Part shown: positions 12,826-17,565 of the stretch, piece after piece
How the letters are laid out: the number at the start of each line of letters is the position of its first letter
How positions within the stretch are numbered: the first letter of the stretch is position 1
Virus record (IMG/VR): IMGVR_UViG_3300046747_000218
Coordinates: 1 to 33,928 of that record
DNA from: a virus
Direction: 5' to 3' (one strand)
DNA: 33,928 nt
Program-made: the position numbers and the translations under genes
Notes under the pieces: model-generated
Databases searched by the model: none
The model's input: only the letters and a program-made list of their open reading frames with translations
Told to the model about the DNA's origin: nothing

Positions 12826-13132
12826 CGACGTTCCCCTTTTTCCATTCTTCCCCGGCTATTTCCAGGACACGAATGTAGTACCCGTCTACCCGGTCGCTGC
12901 GGAATACGGCTGCACACATCTGTCGATCAATCCGATCCCCGTTCGGGTCTTTCGGATTGAACCCCATCATGTACCCTTCCTTCCCACCGGCAGAATCGGC
13001 CATCGCCTTACACAACTTCTCCGCACAGTCTTTCAACGCACGTTCCGGACACCGGAACCGAACGTACTCACCGCTAAGTATGACGATGAATTCGTACCCG
13101 CAGTCTTCGTCGTTTGGCCAGTCAATCGGCAC
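12815..13132 (-). CDS. Hypothetical protein
   Basis: 105 residues from a GTG with GGAG seven bases upstream. Sequence features: PIDWPNDEDCGYEF, then RFRCPERALKDCAEKLCKAMAD with a helical character and four cysteines, then DGYYIRVLEIAGEEW. No recognised domain. Coupled to the following gene by a short overlap. Confidence 0.5.
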   Translation of the reverse strand: MPIDWPNDEDCGYEFIVILSGEYVRFRCPERALKDCAEKLCKAMADSAGGKEGYMMGFNPKDPNGDRIDRQMCAAVFRSDRVDGYYIRVLEIAGEEWKKGNVDAD

Positions 13133-13355
13133 GGGTCAACTCCTTCAGTCGCATCGCCGCTACCCGCATCGGAGTGACCGGTTGTAGCGGAATTAGATAG
13201 CTAAGCATGGTGAATTGCTTGACATCTAATGCCCCTAACGCTTGCATATCCGGATTACTTTCGGCGGCACGCAAAACGTCCTCGATAAGCCATTGCTTAA
13301 CCTTCTTTCCGTACCATTCGGTTGTTTCTTTTAGGGGGTCGATAGTTTCGTTCAT
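13122..13355 (-). CDS. Hypothetical protein downstream of MuF
   Basis: 77 residues from the ATG that overlaps the stop of the MuF gene (ATGA), with GAGGAG nine bases upstream. Helical and charged (TTEWYGKKVKQWLIEDVLRAAE). No family recognised. The coupled start means its translation depends on ribosomes reading through the intein-bearing MuF gene. Confidence 0.55.
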   Translation of the reverse strand: MNETIDPLKETTEWYGKKVKQWLIEDVLRAAESNPDMQALGALDVKQFTMLSYLIPLQPVTPMRVAAMRLKELTRAD

Positions 13356-15028
13356 TCCGGCATCTCCTCGATATTCGTGCAGTAACAATTACTTGATATA
13401 ATGCCATTGCCCAATAGGTACATCGTGTCCGCTGTCCCAAAATCGTAAACGGAGACGCCATGCCCGCACGCGTCACGGTCGATCTTGAGAAGCTTCGACG
13501 TTGCTACGAGTCCCGGGATAGTGTTCTGAGCATGGCGGATACGTTCGGTGTAAGCCGTCCGGTTATAATCAGGAGACTCAAGGCAATCGGATTGCCCATT
13601 CGGTCCTTTTCGGAAGCCCAGACCGAAAGAAACGCCCGCCTTACTCCAGAGCAACGCCTGAAGTTCACGTTCGCGGCCCACGAGGCCGTACGTGGCGTCA
13701 AGCAATCCCTTGAGCATCGCACGAAGATAGCAGCTTCCAAGGCCGCCGCCGCCGGCATACCGGCTTCCGGATACGAAGGCCAGATGGCCCGGTGGCTTAT
13801 GGATCGGGGTATCTCTCCGGTCCCACAGTATGCCCTTGGTCCATACAACGTTGACCTCGCCCTTACAGAGTCTCGCATCGCCGTGGAGATATTCGGGGGT
13901 AACTGGCATAGTACCGGACGTCACGCTGTCCGATTCCGCCAGCGAACGGAATACCTGCTCGGCCAAGGGTGGTTGCCAATTTATATCTGGGCTGTCAAAG
14001 TCTGGAAAACCGTACGGTTTACGGAAGCTAGTGCAGAGTACGTCGTCGCCCTCCATAAGGTCCGATGCTCTGGCAAAACCGGTGGGAGTCAAGAGCATGT
14101 GATTCGGGGTGACTGCTACACGACTCCCATCGTCAAAGTGAAACCGGAAAACGGGGCCTTGATACTTGGCGTGCATCGCGGAAATAAGCGACACGCCCCA
14201 AACGGGTGTTTCTGCTAGAACGCAATGCGGATGCGCCGGGGCGTGGTAGACGACCCGGTACGCCGGGTTGCCCTTCGGGTGGATGTAAAACGGCTCGCCG
14301 ATCTTGACCGTCTTCCCGTCCAGTGGACGGCAGATTTCTTCGCAAGCGTCCGACGACGCCAGCCAAGTCCACTCCGTCACCCCGAGTTCCTTTGCCGCGA
14401 TACCCTGGCCGGCGTGAACCGCCCGGCTGGATTCCGTCTGAGCGATCGTCGCGGCACGCCTGGGAGAAAACGCTTGCAACCGGATCCGTTCCGCCATCGC
14501 CGCGACCGGTTCTCCCGCCTGCAACCCCGCGGACAACTCCTCCCGGATCATCCGCCGCGTGTCTTCGACGATCGTACCGGCGAGACGCAAGGCAAGTCGC
14601 TCCGCCTCGATCCGAACTTCCGGACGGAACAGTGTCCAGTCGAACGTCAGCGAGGGCGGTTGAGGAATTCCCGATGCCGCTCCGGCTGCGGTTGGGGGGA
14701 TTCCGCCGACGGCTTTAACCCTAACGCTTTGAGTGCCCCGCTCATCAGAATAGCCCCGAGACACAACGCCGCGAGGAAGTATCCCGCTTCGGACAGATTG
14801 TGCACGACCAGCCCCTTTCATTGTTCGGAGGTATCCCGCCGCTAGTTCGACGCCGAGTGCGTTCAACGCCAGCCGGTAGACCATCTCCCGCATCGGACCG
14901 GAATCGGGCACGTATCCCGCCTCGATCATCGGCTTCGCCTGCTCCCACAACGCCCGGAACATGCGGGCGAGTGCCCGGGCGAATCGGCGTCCGGATGGGA
15001 TTCGGCGTCCGTGGCGGGGGTCGATCAT
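13352..15028 (-). CDS. MuF-type head morphogenesis protein interrupted by an intein
   Basis: 558 residues as translated, 279 after removal of the intein. The start at 15028 overlaps the radical-SAM gene stop (ATGA); a longer upstream frame is a shadow of that gene. The N-terminal part is helical and basic (RRFARALARMFRALWEQAKP). The C-terminal part is a clear SPP1 gp7/Mu F-type domain: FSPRRAATIAQTESSRAVHAG, TEWTWLASSDACEEICRPLDGK, then YHAPAHPH. The conserved final HPxCxC is broken by the intein at its first Cys and restored by splicing to HPHCYCTNIEE. MuF proteins are minor head proteins associated with the portal. In most phages the gene follows the portal directly; here about 8.7 kb of other genes intervene. 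Confidence 0.85.
   Translation of the reverse strand: MIDPRHGRRIPSGRRFARALARMFRALWEQAKPMIEAGYVPDSGPMREMVYRLALNALGVELAAGYLRTMKGAGRAQSVRSGILPRGVVSRGYSDERGTQSVRVKAVGGIPPTAAGAASGIPQPPSLTFDWTLFRPEVRIEAERLALRLAGTIVEDTRRMIREELSAGLQAGEPVAAMAERIRLQAFSPRRAATIAQTESSRAVHAGQGIAAKELGVTEWTWLASSDACEEICRPLDGKTVKIGEPFYIHPKGNPAYRVVYHAPAHPHCVLAETPVWGVSLISAMHAKYQGPVFRFHFDDGSRVAVTPNHMLLTPTGFARASDLMEGDDVLCTSFRKPYGFPDFDSPDINWQPPLAEQVFRSLAESDSVTSGTMPVTPEYLHGDARLCKGEVNVVWTKGILWDRRDTPIHKPPGHLAFVSGSRYAGGGGLGSCYLRAMLKGLLDATYGLVGRERELQALLWSKAGVSFGLGFRKGPNGQSDCLESPDYNRTAYTERIRHAQNTIPGLVATSKLLKIDRDACGHGVSVYDFGTADTMYLLGNGIISSNCYCTNIEEMPE
13388..14224 (-). other. Intein within the MuF gene
   Basis: 279 codons in frame with the host gene. 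Block A is CVLAETPVWG (Cys1). Block B is VAVTPNHMLLTPTGF with the expected TxxH at T39 and H42. Block F/G is VSVYDFGTADTMYLLGNGIISSN, ending in Asn279, with Cys as the +1 residue of the C-extein. The usual penultimate His is Ser278. The middle (about residues 70-250) contains HGDARLCKGEVNVVW, which fits a long insertion that I associate with inteins of phage structural genes but cannot verify here. No LAGLIDADG or HNH domain lies in the intein frame. Instead a nuclease is encoded on the opposite strand. Confidence 0.85.
13460..14218 (+). CDS. Vsr-like (EDxHD-type) homing endonuclease, antisense within the intein
   Basis: 252 residues. GGAG at 13451-13454 lies five bases before the ATG, a good ribosome binding site. 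Residues 10-50 form a helix-turn-helix (SVLSMADTFGVSRPVIIRRL). The catalytic part spans about 103-182: GYEGQMARWLMDRGI with E106, LGPYNVDLAL with D132, RIAVEIFGGNWHS with E143 and H150, then R-rich FRQRTEYLLGQGWLPIYIW. This is the pattern of very-short-patch-repair-like nucleases, including the EDxHD homing family typified by I-Bth0305I. It is encoded opposite the intein, from residue 255 back to residue 3. The last 50 residues have no recognisable domain and may be tolerated read-through. Role inferred: spreading the intein into empty MuF alleles. Confidence 0.75.
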   Translation: MPARVTVDLEKLRRCYESRDSVLSMADTFGVSRPVIIRRLKAIGLPIRSFSEAQTERNARLTPEQRLKFTFAAHEAVRGVKQSLEHRTKIAASKAAAAGIPASGYEGQMARWLMDRGISPVPQYALGPYNVDLALTESRIAVEIFGGNWHSTGRHAVRFRQRTEYLLGQGWLPIYIWAVKVWKTVRFTEASAEYVVALHKVRCSGKTGGSQEHVIRGDCYTTPIVKVKPENGALILGVHRGNKRHAPNGCFC

Positions 15029-16827
15029 CCGTAGGCCGCTACGTGAATGTGACCGTTTGGCAGGTTTCGGGATGCGAATTCCATCCCGCCAGATGGCCAT
15101 ATCAACCCCTTGTCGGATCGAGGAAATTCCCCTTCCCAGGTTTCGCTGGATCCGATCGATACAAACCTCAATCGCATAGCCGCTTGATCGCCGAGATGAC
15201 ACTTGGCGAAGAAATCTCCGATCGGGATCACACCATTTGCGGTCAACATCCCCACTTGCCTCCACTTCGGAGATTCCGTCGTCCCGTTCCAACCCGCCCC
15301 GAGTTCCCCGCCGTGGTCGATGTGCCGGACCGCCAGTTCCGGGATTACGTGCCGTTTGCCGGCGGGGAACTGCTGCATGAACCAGGAGTCGATGCCGCCG
15401 GCTGAACAGAACTCCTCCGACATTACGGCAGGCCATTTGTAGCGGATTGCCGATGCCCGCTTGTTGAACAGTTGGAAGTACCCGTTAGGCTCCGAATTCA
15501 GACCGCCGCCCTCGTTCCGGCTTGCCCCGTACAGCACCCCAGGATTCAACGCATGAGTCCGCACGTACTCCCGAAGATTGCCCGGCAGGAAGCAATCGGC
15601 GTCCGTCAGCACGACCCAATCCGCGTCGGGGGCGAGTGCCTTCAACCCGTCGTTGAGCATCGCCCCTTTGTTGAAAGCGAAGTCACGGTCGTCACATCGG
15701 GAGGACAGCCATATCCGAATTCCCATCATCATCGCCGGAGATGTGCGTTGGATTCCAGAGACAACCCTAAACGATTCCTTATCCTCCGGATGAATCACTG
15801 CGATCAATTCGTCCACCTGCCCCGCATTGTGCTCCAGCGTCTGCCGCAGGTGTTCCGCCCGCCCCACGCACACCACGACGGCGGACAGCTTGCGGGGCAT
15901 CATCGACCGGTTGTCCGGCGAGACTCGGGGGCCGGCGGTATAGTTGTCCTTTGTCACAACTTCTCGATGCTCTCTATGAACTTCCGGATCGAATTGAGCA
16001 AAACGGTTTTTCTTAACCGCGGGACTTCCGACAAGCTCCAGACGGACAACATGGTTCTTGCCAAGGATATCTCTCTCGACAGAGTCAACAGCACTTGGTC
16101 CTGGGAGACATAGGCTGCACATTTCGCACAAGTGTATTTGGTCTCCGAACTGGTCGGGATTTCGTCTCCACCATCCGTCTTCGATGGGCCAAGCGTTTCG
16201 CCCATTGTTGTAGAGCAAGTCGAGTGTCCCGGCGTGTTCGCAGAAGTATGCCCCTTTCGGCGTGATGCTACCGCTCCAGGTGTTTTGCACCCAGCAGGCG
16301 TCCCGGTACTTCGGGAAGTCTTCCCACGGAATGCCGAGGGCTTCGCACATTTCTTGGGCATCGACTAGCCCCGTTTGGTGAACCCCGCCGGCCGTGTGGT
16401 CGTTTGGATTCCAGTGCGAGAACGTGTCCATCACCGTTTCGTAGTGGTCGATGAAACGCGGACCGAACGACGTCCAGAGTCCCCGTCCGTTCGACCGGTC
16501 CCATAGCCGCTGCTCGGCGAACTGGTTGAAGTCCGCGATCGGTTCCCGGCCGTGGACCGGATCGGCACCCGGGTTCCATTCCTCCCGAAAGACTTTGCAC
16601 ATCTCGGAAAACTGCGAATGAAGTGTCGGTTCGCCGCCGATGAGGCCGACGACTCGTCCGGGCTGCCACCAGCCTTTGAGCGATCGGAGGGCGTCCCGTA
16701 ATTGATCGGGGGACATTTCCCGCTTGTGTGTCTGATGGGCAACGGCACGGGTGCAATTCGAACAGGATAGGAAGCACCTGTTCGTGATGTCGATGACGAG
16801 TATGTCCATCTCAGCCGGCGAACGCAT
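15025..16827 (-). CDS. Radical SAM enzyme fused to a GT-A glycosyltransferase
   Basis: 600 residues from the ATG at 16827, chosen because GGAG lies just upstream; a GTG 12 codons earlier is weaker. Residues about 8-260 are a radical SAM domain: ITNRCFLSCSNCTR gives the CxxxCxxC cluster site (C18, C22, C25), and GLIGGEPT at 62-68 is the GGE region. C178, then GAYFC (C196) and CEMCSLC (C234, C237, C240) resemble a SPASM/twitch auxiliary iron-sulfur site. Residues about 313-520 are a glycosyltransferase: KLSAVVVCVGRAEHLRQTLE, RDFAFNKGAMLNDGLKA, and VVLTDADCF with DxD at 409-411. A fused protein suggests radical chemistry and sugar transfer on one pathway; the substrate is unknown. It sits directly upstream of MuF. 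Confidence 0.8.
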   Translation of the reverse strand: MRSPAEMDILVIDITNRCFLSCSNCTRAVAHQTHKREMSPDQLRDALRSLKGWWQPGRVVGLIGGEPTLHSQFSEMCKVFREEWNPGADPVHGREPIADFNQFAEQRLWDRSNGRGLWTSFGPRFIDHYETVMDTFSHWNPNDHTAGGVHQTGLVDAQEMCEALGIPWEDFPKYRDACWVQNTWSGSITPKGAYFCEHAGTLDLLYNNGRNAWPIEDGWWRRNPDQFGDQIHLCEMCSLCLPGPSAVDSVERDILGKNHVVRLELVGSPAVKKNRFAQFDPEVHREHREVVTKDNYTAGPRVSPDNRSMMPRKLSAVVVCVGRAEHLRQTLEHNAGQVDELIAVIHPEDKESFRVVSGIQRTSPAMMMGIRIWLSSRCDDRDFAFNKGAMLNDGLKALAPDADWVVLTDADCFLPGNLREYVRTHALNPGVLYGASRNEGGGLNSEPNGYFQLFNKRASAIRYKWPAVMSEEFCSAGGIDSWFMQQFPAGKRHVIPELAVRHIDHGGELGAGWNGTTESPKWRQVGMLTANGVIPIGDFFAKCHLGDQAAMRLRFVSIGSSETWEGEFPRSDKGLIWPSGGMEFASRNLPNGHIHVAAYG

Positions 16828-16841
16828 AAACTCTCCATTGG

Positions 16842-17087
16842 TCAAACAGGTCCACCACGCCACTCCCGTTTAACCCGTGCCCGGTGGGCCTGAATCCGCT
16901 CCTCCAGCTCGTCCGGGTCGAACACGTCCTGAGCCTTCATCAGAATCCGGGTCGTTTCCAGGATTACCCTATCCGGCTCGCCGCGGTTCAACGGCCTGAT
17001 CCGCTTACGGCACTTAGCCGAAATGGTCTCGTTAGTGATCCTATTTCCTCCACCACGCCAGCGACGGCCCAATGCGGGTAAACCCAC
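16842..17087 (-). CDS. Small charged hypothetical protein
   Basis: Up to 81 residues from a GTG at 17087 that overlaps the upstream methyltransferase by about 47 bases. The distal part is helical and charged (EPDRVILETTRILMKAQDVF, ELEERIQAHRARVKREW). The start is uncertain: a strong GGAGG lies seven bases before an in-frame ATC at 17039, which would give about 65 residues without overlap. No family recognised. Confidence 0.45.
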   Translation of the reverse strand: MGLPALGRRWRGGGNRITNETISAKCRKRIRPLNRGEPDRVILETTRILMKAQDVFDPDELEERIQAHRARVKREWRGGPV

Positions 17088-17565
17088 CGCGTTCGTTCAA
17101 GGCCTGCTTGACCCCGGGGAACCAGGAGTAGTCGTGGCAAGCGATCACACCGTTCCGTTTTACCACCCGTTCCCATGCCGCGACGTCCGCCTTGACTGAC
17201 TCGTAGTTGTGGCAAGCGTCGATGAACACCCCGTCGAGGCATTCCTCCGGGAATAGCGTAGCCGCCTCTGCCGTGTCCATCCGGATCAACGAAACCGACC
17301 GAAGATAGCGATCCCCTACGTTACTCAACCAAGTCGCGTACGCGGTTTCCGGTGAATGACCCTTGCCGGACAAGAGGTCGCTCGGATCGGTCGAGCCGAC
17401 GAACGTGTCCACGCAAATCACCTTGATTCCCGCGTCCGCGATCCGGCAGGCCGTCGCCCCGACCCACGACCCGACTTCGGCGACCAGACCGCATTCGTAT
17501 CGGCGGAATATCTCGATAAGGTTGGCCGTGTCCTCACCGTTCGATTCCATGCCCAAATGATTCAT
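17041..17565 (-). CDS. SAM-dependent methyltransferase (Methyltransf_24-like)
   Basis: 174 residues, coupled to the upstream gene by ATGA. GLVAEVGSWVGATACRIAD is the SAM-binding motif I, ICVDTF the acidic motif II, and GVFIDACHNYESVKADVAAW the FIDxxHxYExVxxD signature of Methyltransf_24 enzymes. GVIACHDYSWFPGVKQAL follows, also typical. Members often methylate sugars or other small acceptors in surface-glycan and natural-product clusters, which fits the glycosyltransferases nearby. The acceptor is not predictable. Confidence 0.75.
   Translation of the reverse strand: MNHLGMESNGEDTANLIEIFRRYECGLVAEVGSWVGATACRIADAGIKVICVDTFVGSTDPSDLLSGKGHSPETAYATWLSNVGDRYLRSVSLIRMDTAEAATLFPEECLDGVFIDACHNYESVKADVAAWERVVKRNGVIACHDYSWFPGVKQALNERGGFTRIGPSLAWWRK

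Follow-up and report, generated by a model that had tools for sequence, protein, structure and literature searches.

Canonical inteins that contain homing endonucleases (HEN; e.g. PI-SceI and TliVMA, 7QSU) carry the nuclease as a domain fused in frame, within one polypeptide. Phage fractured genes reportedly combine split inteins with EDxHD/Vsr-like nucleases, the intein and the host gene both being split in two (Dassa et al. 2009). Enzymes of the EDxHD type are also found in introns: I-Bth0305I is encoded in a group I intron, and phage group II introns carry EDxHD/Vsr-like nucleases (PMC12350094). A nuclease in a second reading frame has been described in ShiLan-type loci, where a same-strand, out-of-frame HNH gene lies inside a non-splicing methylase insertion (PMC11855218), and antisense homing endonuclease genes (HEGs) are known in nuclear group I introns (e.g. 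I-DsqI; PMC9548176). Inteins in the MuF genes of Guernseyvirinae have already been annotated in Snoke (PMC6776784) and in the UPWr_S phages (PMC8425127).

The window analyzed here, a 33,928-nucleotide stretch of viral DNA (IMG/VR record IMGVR_UViG_3300046747_000218), contains an intein and a Vsr/EDxHD-like nuclease in an arrangement unlike each of these classes. It shares with canonical HEN inteins a Hint domain, insertion at a conserved residue and a putative homing endonuclease within the intein DNA, but the nuclease is a separate protein encoded on the opposite strand. It resembles the fractured genes in nuclease superfamily, phage setting and the nuclease being a gene of its own within an intein-bearing locus, although in those the host gene and intein are broken whereas the MuF/intein frame of the window is continuous. 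The catalytic domain of the EDxHD intron homing endonuclease I-Bth0305I (3R3P) matches the window nuclease by profile and by fold, but its DNA-binding region differs and it is not dual-coded. ShiLan-type insertions likewise place a homing nuclease in another reading frame of an in-frame phage-gene insertion, but use the same strand, belong to the HNH family, and lack both splicing domains and a ribosome-binding site. The I-DsqI-type genes are likewise carried by a self-splicing element, on the strand opposite the host gene, and have their own expression, but the intron acts at the RNA level, the enzyme is of the His-Cys box type, and the gene sits in a large insertion within a peripheral segment of the intron, where it overlaps no protein-coding frame. 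The Guernseyvirinae inteins belong to the same family and interrupt the same gene as that of the window; the Snoke record has no annotation of the antisense nuclease gene, and neither the Snoke paper (PMC6776784) nor the UPWr_S paper (PMC8425127) mentions such a gene.

The MuF-type head morphogenesis gene (13352–15028, minus strand) is part of an open reading frame (13352–15436, minus strand) that matches Phage_Mu_F (Pfam, 3.3e-11) and, weakly, the intein splicing profiles PF14890, TIGR01445 and TIGR01443 (20 bits). Its limits rest additionally on start choice and mature length; the probable start is the ATG at 15028, which overlaps the stop codon of the upstream gene (ATGA). The 558 aa precursor consists of a 268 aa N-extein, a 279 aa intein and an 11 aa C-extein (CYCTNIEEMPE; 13355–13387, minus strand), with a predicted mature product of 279 aa. 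The intein (13388–14224, minus strand) is inserted at a conserved Cys-x-Cys of the MuF head protein; it begins with C1 at 14224, contains the block B motif T39-x-x-H42, and ends in SSN279 at 13388 with C+1 next. Residues C1, T39, H42 and N279 are invariant across 37 diverse homologues, and Cys is present at +1 in all listed loci. Blocks F and G form the last 24 residues of the intein (13388–13459, minus strand), outside the start of the nuclease gene, as delimited by sense-frame constraint and codon-position substitutions. An AF2 model is confident at residues 1–70 and 240–279, moderate at 85–130 (~82) and disordered at ~135–235, and has a Hint fold with TliVMA (5.6e-6) and the Mtu RecA inteins as the best Foldseek matches (probability 1.00). 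A PDB search with the single intein sequence gave only one weak, unrelated match, and profiles were required. The features expected of a class 1 intein are all present—N-terminal Cys, block B TxxH, C-terminal Asn, Cys +1, Hint fold, and exact in-frame insertion with intein-less alleles—and self-splicing is inferred from these, there being no splicing data.

Three other kinds of element were considered and ruled out. A group I or group II intron carrying an HEG is excluded by the absence of any Rfam match in 12900–14700 and by the insertion being open in frame; a split intein or fractured gene, by the unbroken sense frame of the window and all 59 relatives described below; and a ShiLan-type insertion, by the opposite-strand, Vsr-like nuclease and the presence of a Hint fold.

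Directly upstream of the MuF gene is a radical-SAM-domain gene (15025–16863, minus strand; 1.6e-6, slightly below the Pfam cut-off) and beyond it a Methyltransf_24 gene (17041–17565, minus strand; 7.7e-16), both of which are unusual cargo for a head-gene cassette and lie between the portal and MuF genes.

The antisense gene (13460–14218, plus strand) encodes a 252 aa protein with a helix-turn-helix (HTH) at residues ~9–45, a helical linker, a Vsr/EDxHD-like core (~104–180) and a C-terminal tail. The gene runs from a start codon facing His255 of the intein to a stop codon facing residue 3, and ~90% of the intein is therefore dual-coded. The product matches the nuclease family MTES_1575 (E 1.4e-8, 35.2 bits), narrowly missing the Pfam gathering cut-off of 38.2, and profile searches match 3R3P (I-Bth0305I; E 4e-5) and 1CW0 (Vsr; 0.014); a PDB search with the single sequence found no match, and profiles were again required. 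The AF2 model (pLDDT 86) contains the HTH, the helical linker and an alpha/beta core, and its top three Foldseek matches in the PDB are Vsr 1CW0, I-Bth0305I 3R3P and Vsr 1VSR, with a probability of 1.00 although E values of merely ~5e-3 to 1e-2. Among members of the family, 53 of 62 match MTES_1575 and ~30 of 62 match HTH families. The catalytic region (13758–13997, plus strand), placed by alignment conservation and the codon map, comprises E106, YN-x-D132, E143-IFGGNW-H150 and R162, and is opposite intein residues ~76–155. By sequence and fold the product is an HTH protein with a nuclease of Vsr/EDxHD type; that it cleaves DNA is an inference, without cleavage data. In Gordonia phages Vivi2 and Angelicage (L061, L082) and in loci L064–L066 the EIFGGNWH motif is altered (VEVHRS.., VEIYSxHP..) with the frame still open, and activity may differ.

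The first-pass annotation, made from sequence alone, had claimed a MuF intein at 13388–14224 with Cys1, TxxH, Asn and Cys+1, and this held exactly; a 252-codon antisense gene fully inside it with a Shine-Dalgarno sequence, which also held, with the GGAG site and the frame at 13460–14218; and an HTH with a Vsr-like/EDxHD core, which held on profile and fold matches. Of its proposed catalytic residues (E106, D132, E143 and H150), conservation is confirmed (in 47 homologues D132, E143 and H150 are invariant and E106 shows conservation of at least 90%), but that they correspond exactly to the active site of I-Bth0305I is not established. It was to be refuted by the lack of a Vsr-like profile match or by absence of the antisense frame from close relatives of the intein; neither applies, given the profile match to 3R3P and the Foldseek matches to 1CW0 and 3R3P, and the frame being present in all close relatives.

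A ribosome-binding site and start codon (GGAG, short spacer, ATG; 13449–13462, plus strand) lie opposite intein block F (sense H255-G-V-S), the sequence upstream of the nuclease gene being cGGAGacgccATG. Most members have the ATG of the nuclease facing the His of a block F motif, GHVY[ND]L[QE]T, which read backwards is GGAGGTnnTAnACATG; in the window the block F Leu is replaced by Phe, and an inserted Gly-Val-Ser provides the GGAG. The start codon is ATG in 59 of the 68 distinct members, and in 61 a Shine-Dalgarno-like site lies opposite block F at roughly the correct distance. For the block F Leu, 62 of 81 members use CTC, whose reverse complement is GAG, whereas the Leu usage of the individual genes predicts 22 (z = 10), and from this excess the synonymous choice of the intein appears to preserve the ribosome-binding site of the other strand. 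A promoter scan of the plus strand upstream of the nuclease found no sigma-70-like promoter (1.1 expected). Small genes on the same strand as the nuclease are situated directly upstream of it in Edwardsiella and Klebsiella phages, suggesting that read-through from other transcripts is possible. Antisense transcription of the nuclease gene is thus inferred, with no transcript or protein data and no promoter found.

A scan of IMG/VR with the nuclease identified 59 loci (32–46% identity, except for one near-identical contig), and a rescan with an alignment returned 59 loci on identical contigs. In all 59 the strand opposite the nuclease is a long uninterrupted frame, in all 59 the two frames are in phase 0 (codons exactly in register), and the sense proteins contain MuF sequence, an intein start (C[LFVI]..) and an intein end ([HSK]N|C). 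Among 50,697 phage records searched by tblastn, 125 had a match, mostly beneath genes annotated as head morphogenesis, MuF, head or hypothetical protein, in phages of Salmonella (62), Pseudomonas (15), Gordonia (15), Klebsiella (8), Vibrio (4) and other hosts. The antisense-in-MuF-intein arrangement is present in 17 of 19 inspected phage records, the remaining two being free-standing relatives, and is also found in a PVC-group MAG contig, a Candidatus Promineifilum breve plasmid record and Escherichia phage Snoke; a scan of genome contigs gave one locus (L084), arranged likewise. Conversely, a search with only the 84 aa around the N-terminus of one family intein (L044) recovered 27 family intein loci, all 27 with antisense nuclease sequence (HMM), together with one unrelated helicase intein. 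An intein search of control genomes produced no loci that could be used to compare the family with the cyanobacterial DnaX intein.

The phase 0 register has a simple consequence for coding, as sense TAA, TAG and TGA correspond to antisense TTA, CTA and TCA (two Leu codons and one Ser), all of which are replaceable. Because the codons are exactly in register, avoiding these three is enough for any nuclease sequence to be encoded with the sense frame left open. None is present in 65 nuclease genes, compared to ~420 expected from the codon usage of each gene's MuF exteins; in AT-rich members (e.g. L033) ~21 would be expected in a single nuclease gene. Such codons do occur in two free-standing relatives, with 12 in the nuclease of Acinetobacter phage P1068 and 15 in that of Rhizobium phage TM61.

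Two further analyses show constraint in both frames. When synonymous codons were permuted within the window intein, retaining the intein protein and its codons, 300 recodings averaged 73 bits and reached at most 115 against a nuclease family profile from which the window sequence was excluded, whereas the true antisense frame scores 243.8 bits; four further members respond alike. Substitutions between relatives, expressed as sense position 1/(position 1 + position 3), fall mostly at sense position 3 in the exteins (0.33 and 0.32) and in the block F–G tail (0.22), but favor sense position 1, which is nuclease position 3, opposite the nuclease core (0.61, P 1e-6) and the HTH (0.60, P 1e-8), where the antisense product shows less amino-acid change than the sense product does. 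An intermediate value (0.42) applies to the N-splicing region, which faces the nuclease C-terminus. Some related pairs share a sequence and are not independent, so the P values should be taken as indicative only. The exteins and blocks F and G are therefore constrained in the sense frame and the nuclease region in the antisense frame. The disordered part of the intein model (~135–235) is opposite the HTH and linker, consistent with the inverted substitution pattern there, and the sense stretch opposite the HTH is likely a disposable, disordered linker.

The MuF gene of Salmonella phage horsemountain has the same layout as that of phage sidste minus exactly 816 nt (272 codons) at HPN|C, and represents an empty site. 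Outside the insertion region horsemountain is 98–100% identical to intein-bearing phages in 60-nt bins, but identity beside the insertion falls to 0.60–0.80 over ~−129 to +51 relative to sidste and to 0.88–0.95 over ~−69 to +51 relative to demigod. Diverged flanks with tracts of differing length are as expected from co-conversion during homing, although homing itself is inferred and the comparison concerns Salmonella phages rather than the window's own MuF gene. Of 501 records in a blastn search, 69 span 80% or more of the sidste region that bears the intein; the rest include many Guernseyvirinae that lack the insert. In Escherichia phage fEg-Eco06 (L172, 1356–3293) a diverged intein of the antisense-nuclease type occupies a second MuF site, after DSRTSTT and upstream of the usual HPN|C.

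Decay of the nuclease is also evident. Three loci (L096, L101 and L102) have shrunken inteins and decayed antisense nucleases, with splicing residues intact and the sense frame open; L096 has lost the HTH and has stops and deletions in the nuclease frame while its 188 aa intein remains open, and L101 and L102 have internal deletions in the nuclease. In Acinetobacter phage P1068 (L071, 2330–3993) an intact, intein-less MuF gene is followed directly by a free-standing homologous nuclease on the opposite strand, and such a MuF-targeting free-standing nuclease is a possible, though only inferred, ancestral state.

The element is likely a mobile MuF intein whose homing endonuclease is a complete opposite-strand gene inside it, not fused in frame. 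The two genes, their phase, selection in both frames, the empty site, the flanking tract and the decay are directly evident, while splicing, antisense expression, cleavage and homing are inferred. A working homing gene is supported because of the codon-position substitutions, the avoidance of TTA, CTA and TCA, the ribosome-binding site preserved by synonymous choice, and the exact empty site with a co-conversion-like tract. In the proposed mechanism a late sense transcript would yield the MuF precursor, from which the Hint domain would splice itself out; a separate antisense transcript would yield the HTH/Vsr-like (EDxHD-type) endonuclease, with its ribosome-binding site read out of block F. 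Where a co-infecting phage has a MuF gene without the intein, the endonuclease would cut that gene near the insertion site, and repair from the intein-bearing copy would insert intein and nuclease together.

Three rival explanations can be considered. The best surviving, although unlikely, is that the nuclease is real but now mostly inactive or serving another role (e.g. excluding related phages without homing), with the intein inherited vertically. The decayed copies (stops in L096, internal deletions in L101 and L102) and incomplete motifs such as VEVHRS in place of EIFGG in Vivi2 favor this, but the nuclease frame is under purifying selection, and the patchy presence, empty sites in near-identical phages, short diverged flanks and two MuF insertion sites argue against it. 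The second, which is very unlikely, holds that the nuclease is functional and the sense insertion is an in-frame loop that is tolerated without splicing, an idea already put forward for the methylase insertion of ShiLan. The weak intein profile scores (20 bits) are in its favor and splicing itself is inferred; however, the splicing residues and C+1 are conserved across the 37 diverse homologues, the Hint fold is matched with a probability of 1.00, sense constraint is present in the N-splicing and F–G blocks, insertion is exact at N|C, and the intein persists where the nuclease decays. The third, that only the intein functions and conservation of the antisense frame mirrors the conserved sense protein through in-register codons, is all but excluded: codons in phase 0 do mirror one another, the sense block HGDG...INVV is a reflection of the nuclease core, intein-preserving shuffles still average 73 bits with the nuclease profile and AF2 confidence is moderate (~82) at sense residues 85–130, but the true antisense score (243.8) far exceeds the shuffle maximum (115), the substitution bias inverts opposite the nuclease with purifying selection in its frame, and there are independent family and fold matches, a Shine-Dalgarno codon bias and a free-standing homologue without an intein.

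Returning to the mobile intein, a bolder reading is that it represents an ancient and widespread lineage derived from a P1068-like free-standing MuF-targeting nuclease, with splicing and homing encoded codon-for-codon on opposite strands, both frames selected, a ribosome-binding site encoded by block F, and an architecture not described before; the balance of evidence tips modestly towards it. MuF inteins, EDxHD nucleases and antisense nuclease genes in group I introns are all known already, and it is possible that their combination is new, with priority only partly checkable. No antisense nuclease in an intein was found in the full-text literature searched, which excludes Gosselin 2025 (bioRxiv 10.1101/2025.01.02.630785) and Gorbalenya 1998 (NAR 26:1741), both of which Arsenault et al. 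cite for overlapping frames. The first-pass claim of novelty is to that extent only partly checked, without precedent in what was searched, while its claim that homing and splicing share the same DNA on opposite strands is supported more strongly than it was made, with splicing, transcription and cleavage inferred.

Encoding the intein and its putative homing nuclease as separate proteins on opposite strands of shared DNA would permit the nuclease a timing unlike that of a late head protein. The locus is an unusually clear and conserved full-length antisense pair, in the sole register that allows free dual coding, and is relevant to how overlapping genes evolve. Direct tests of homing, of splicing and of expression from the antisense strand are feasible, since the arrangement is present in laboratory-tractable Salmonella and E. 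coli phages with near-identical intein-less siblings. Surveys of inteins restricted to in-frame nucleases would miss genes of this kind, and the two-way gene lies unannotated in ~200 other phage sequences, including those of common Salmonella and E. coli phages. One MuF gene among the IMG/VR loci (L014; 3300020233_000030) apparently has two inteins, one of another type at DDRT|C and an antisense-nuclease intein at HPL|C.
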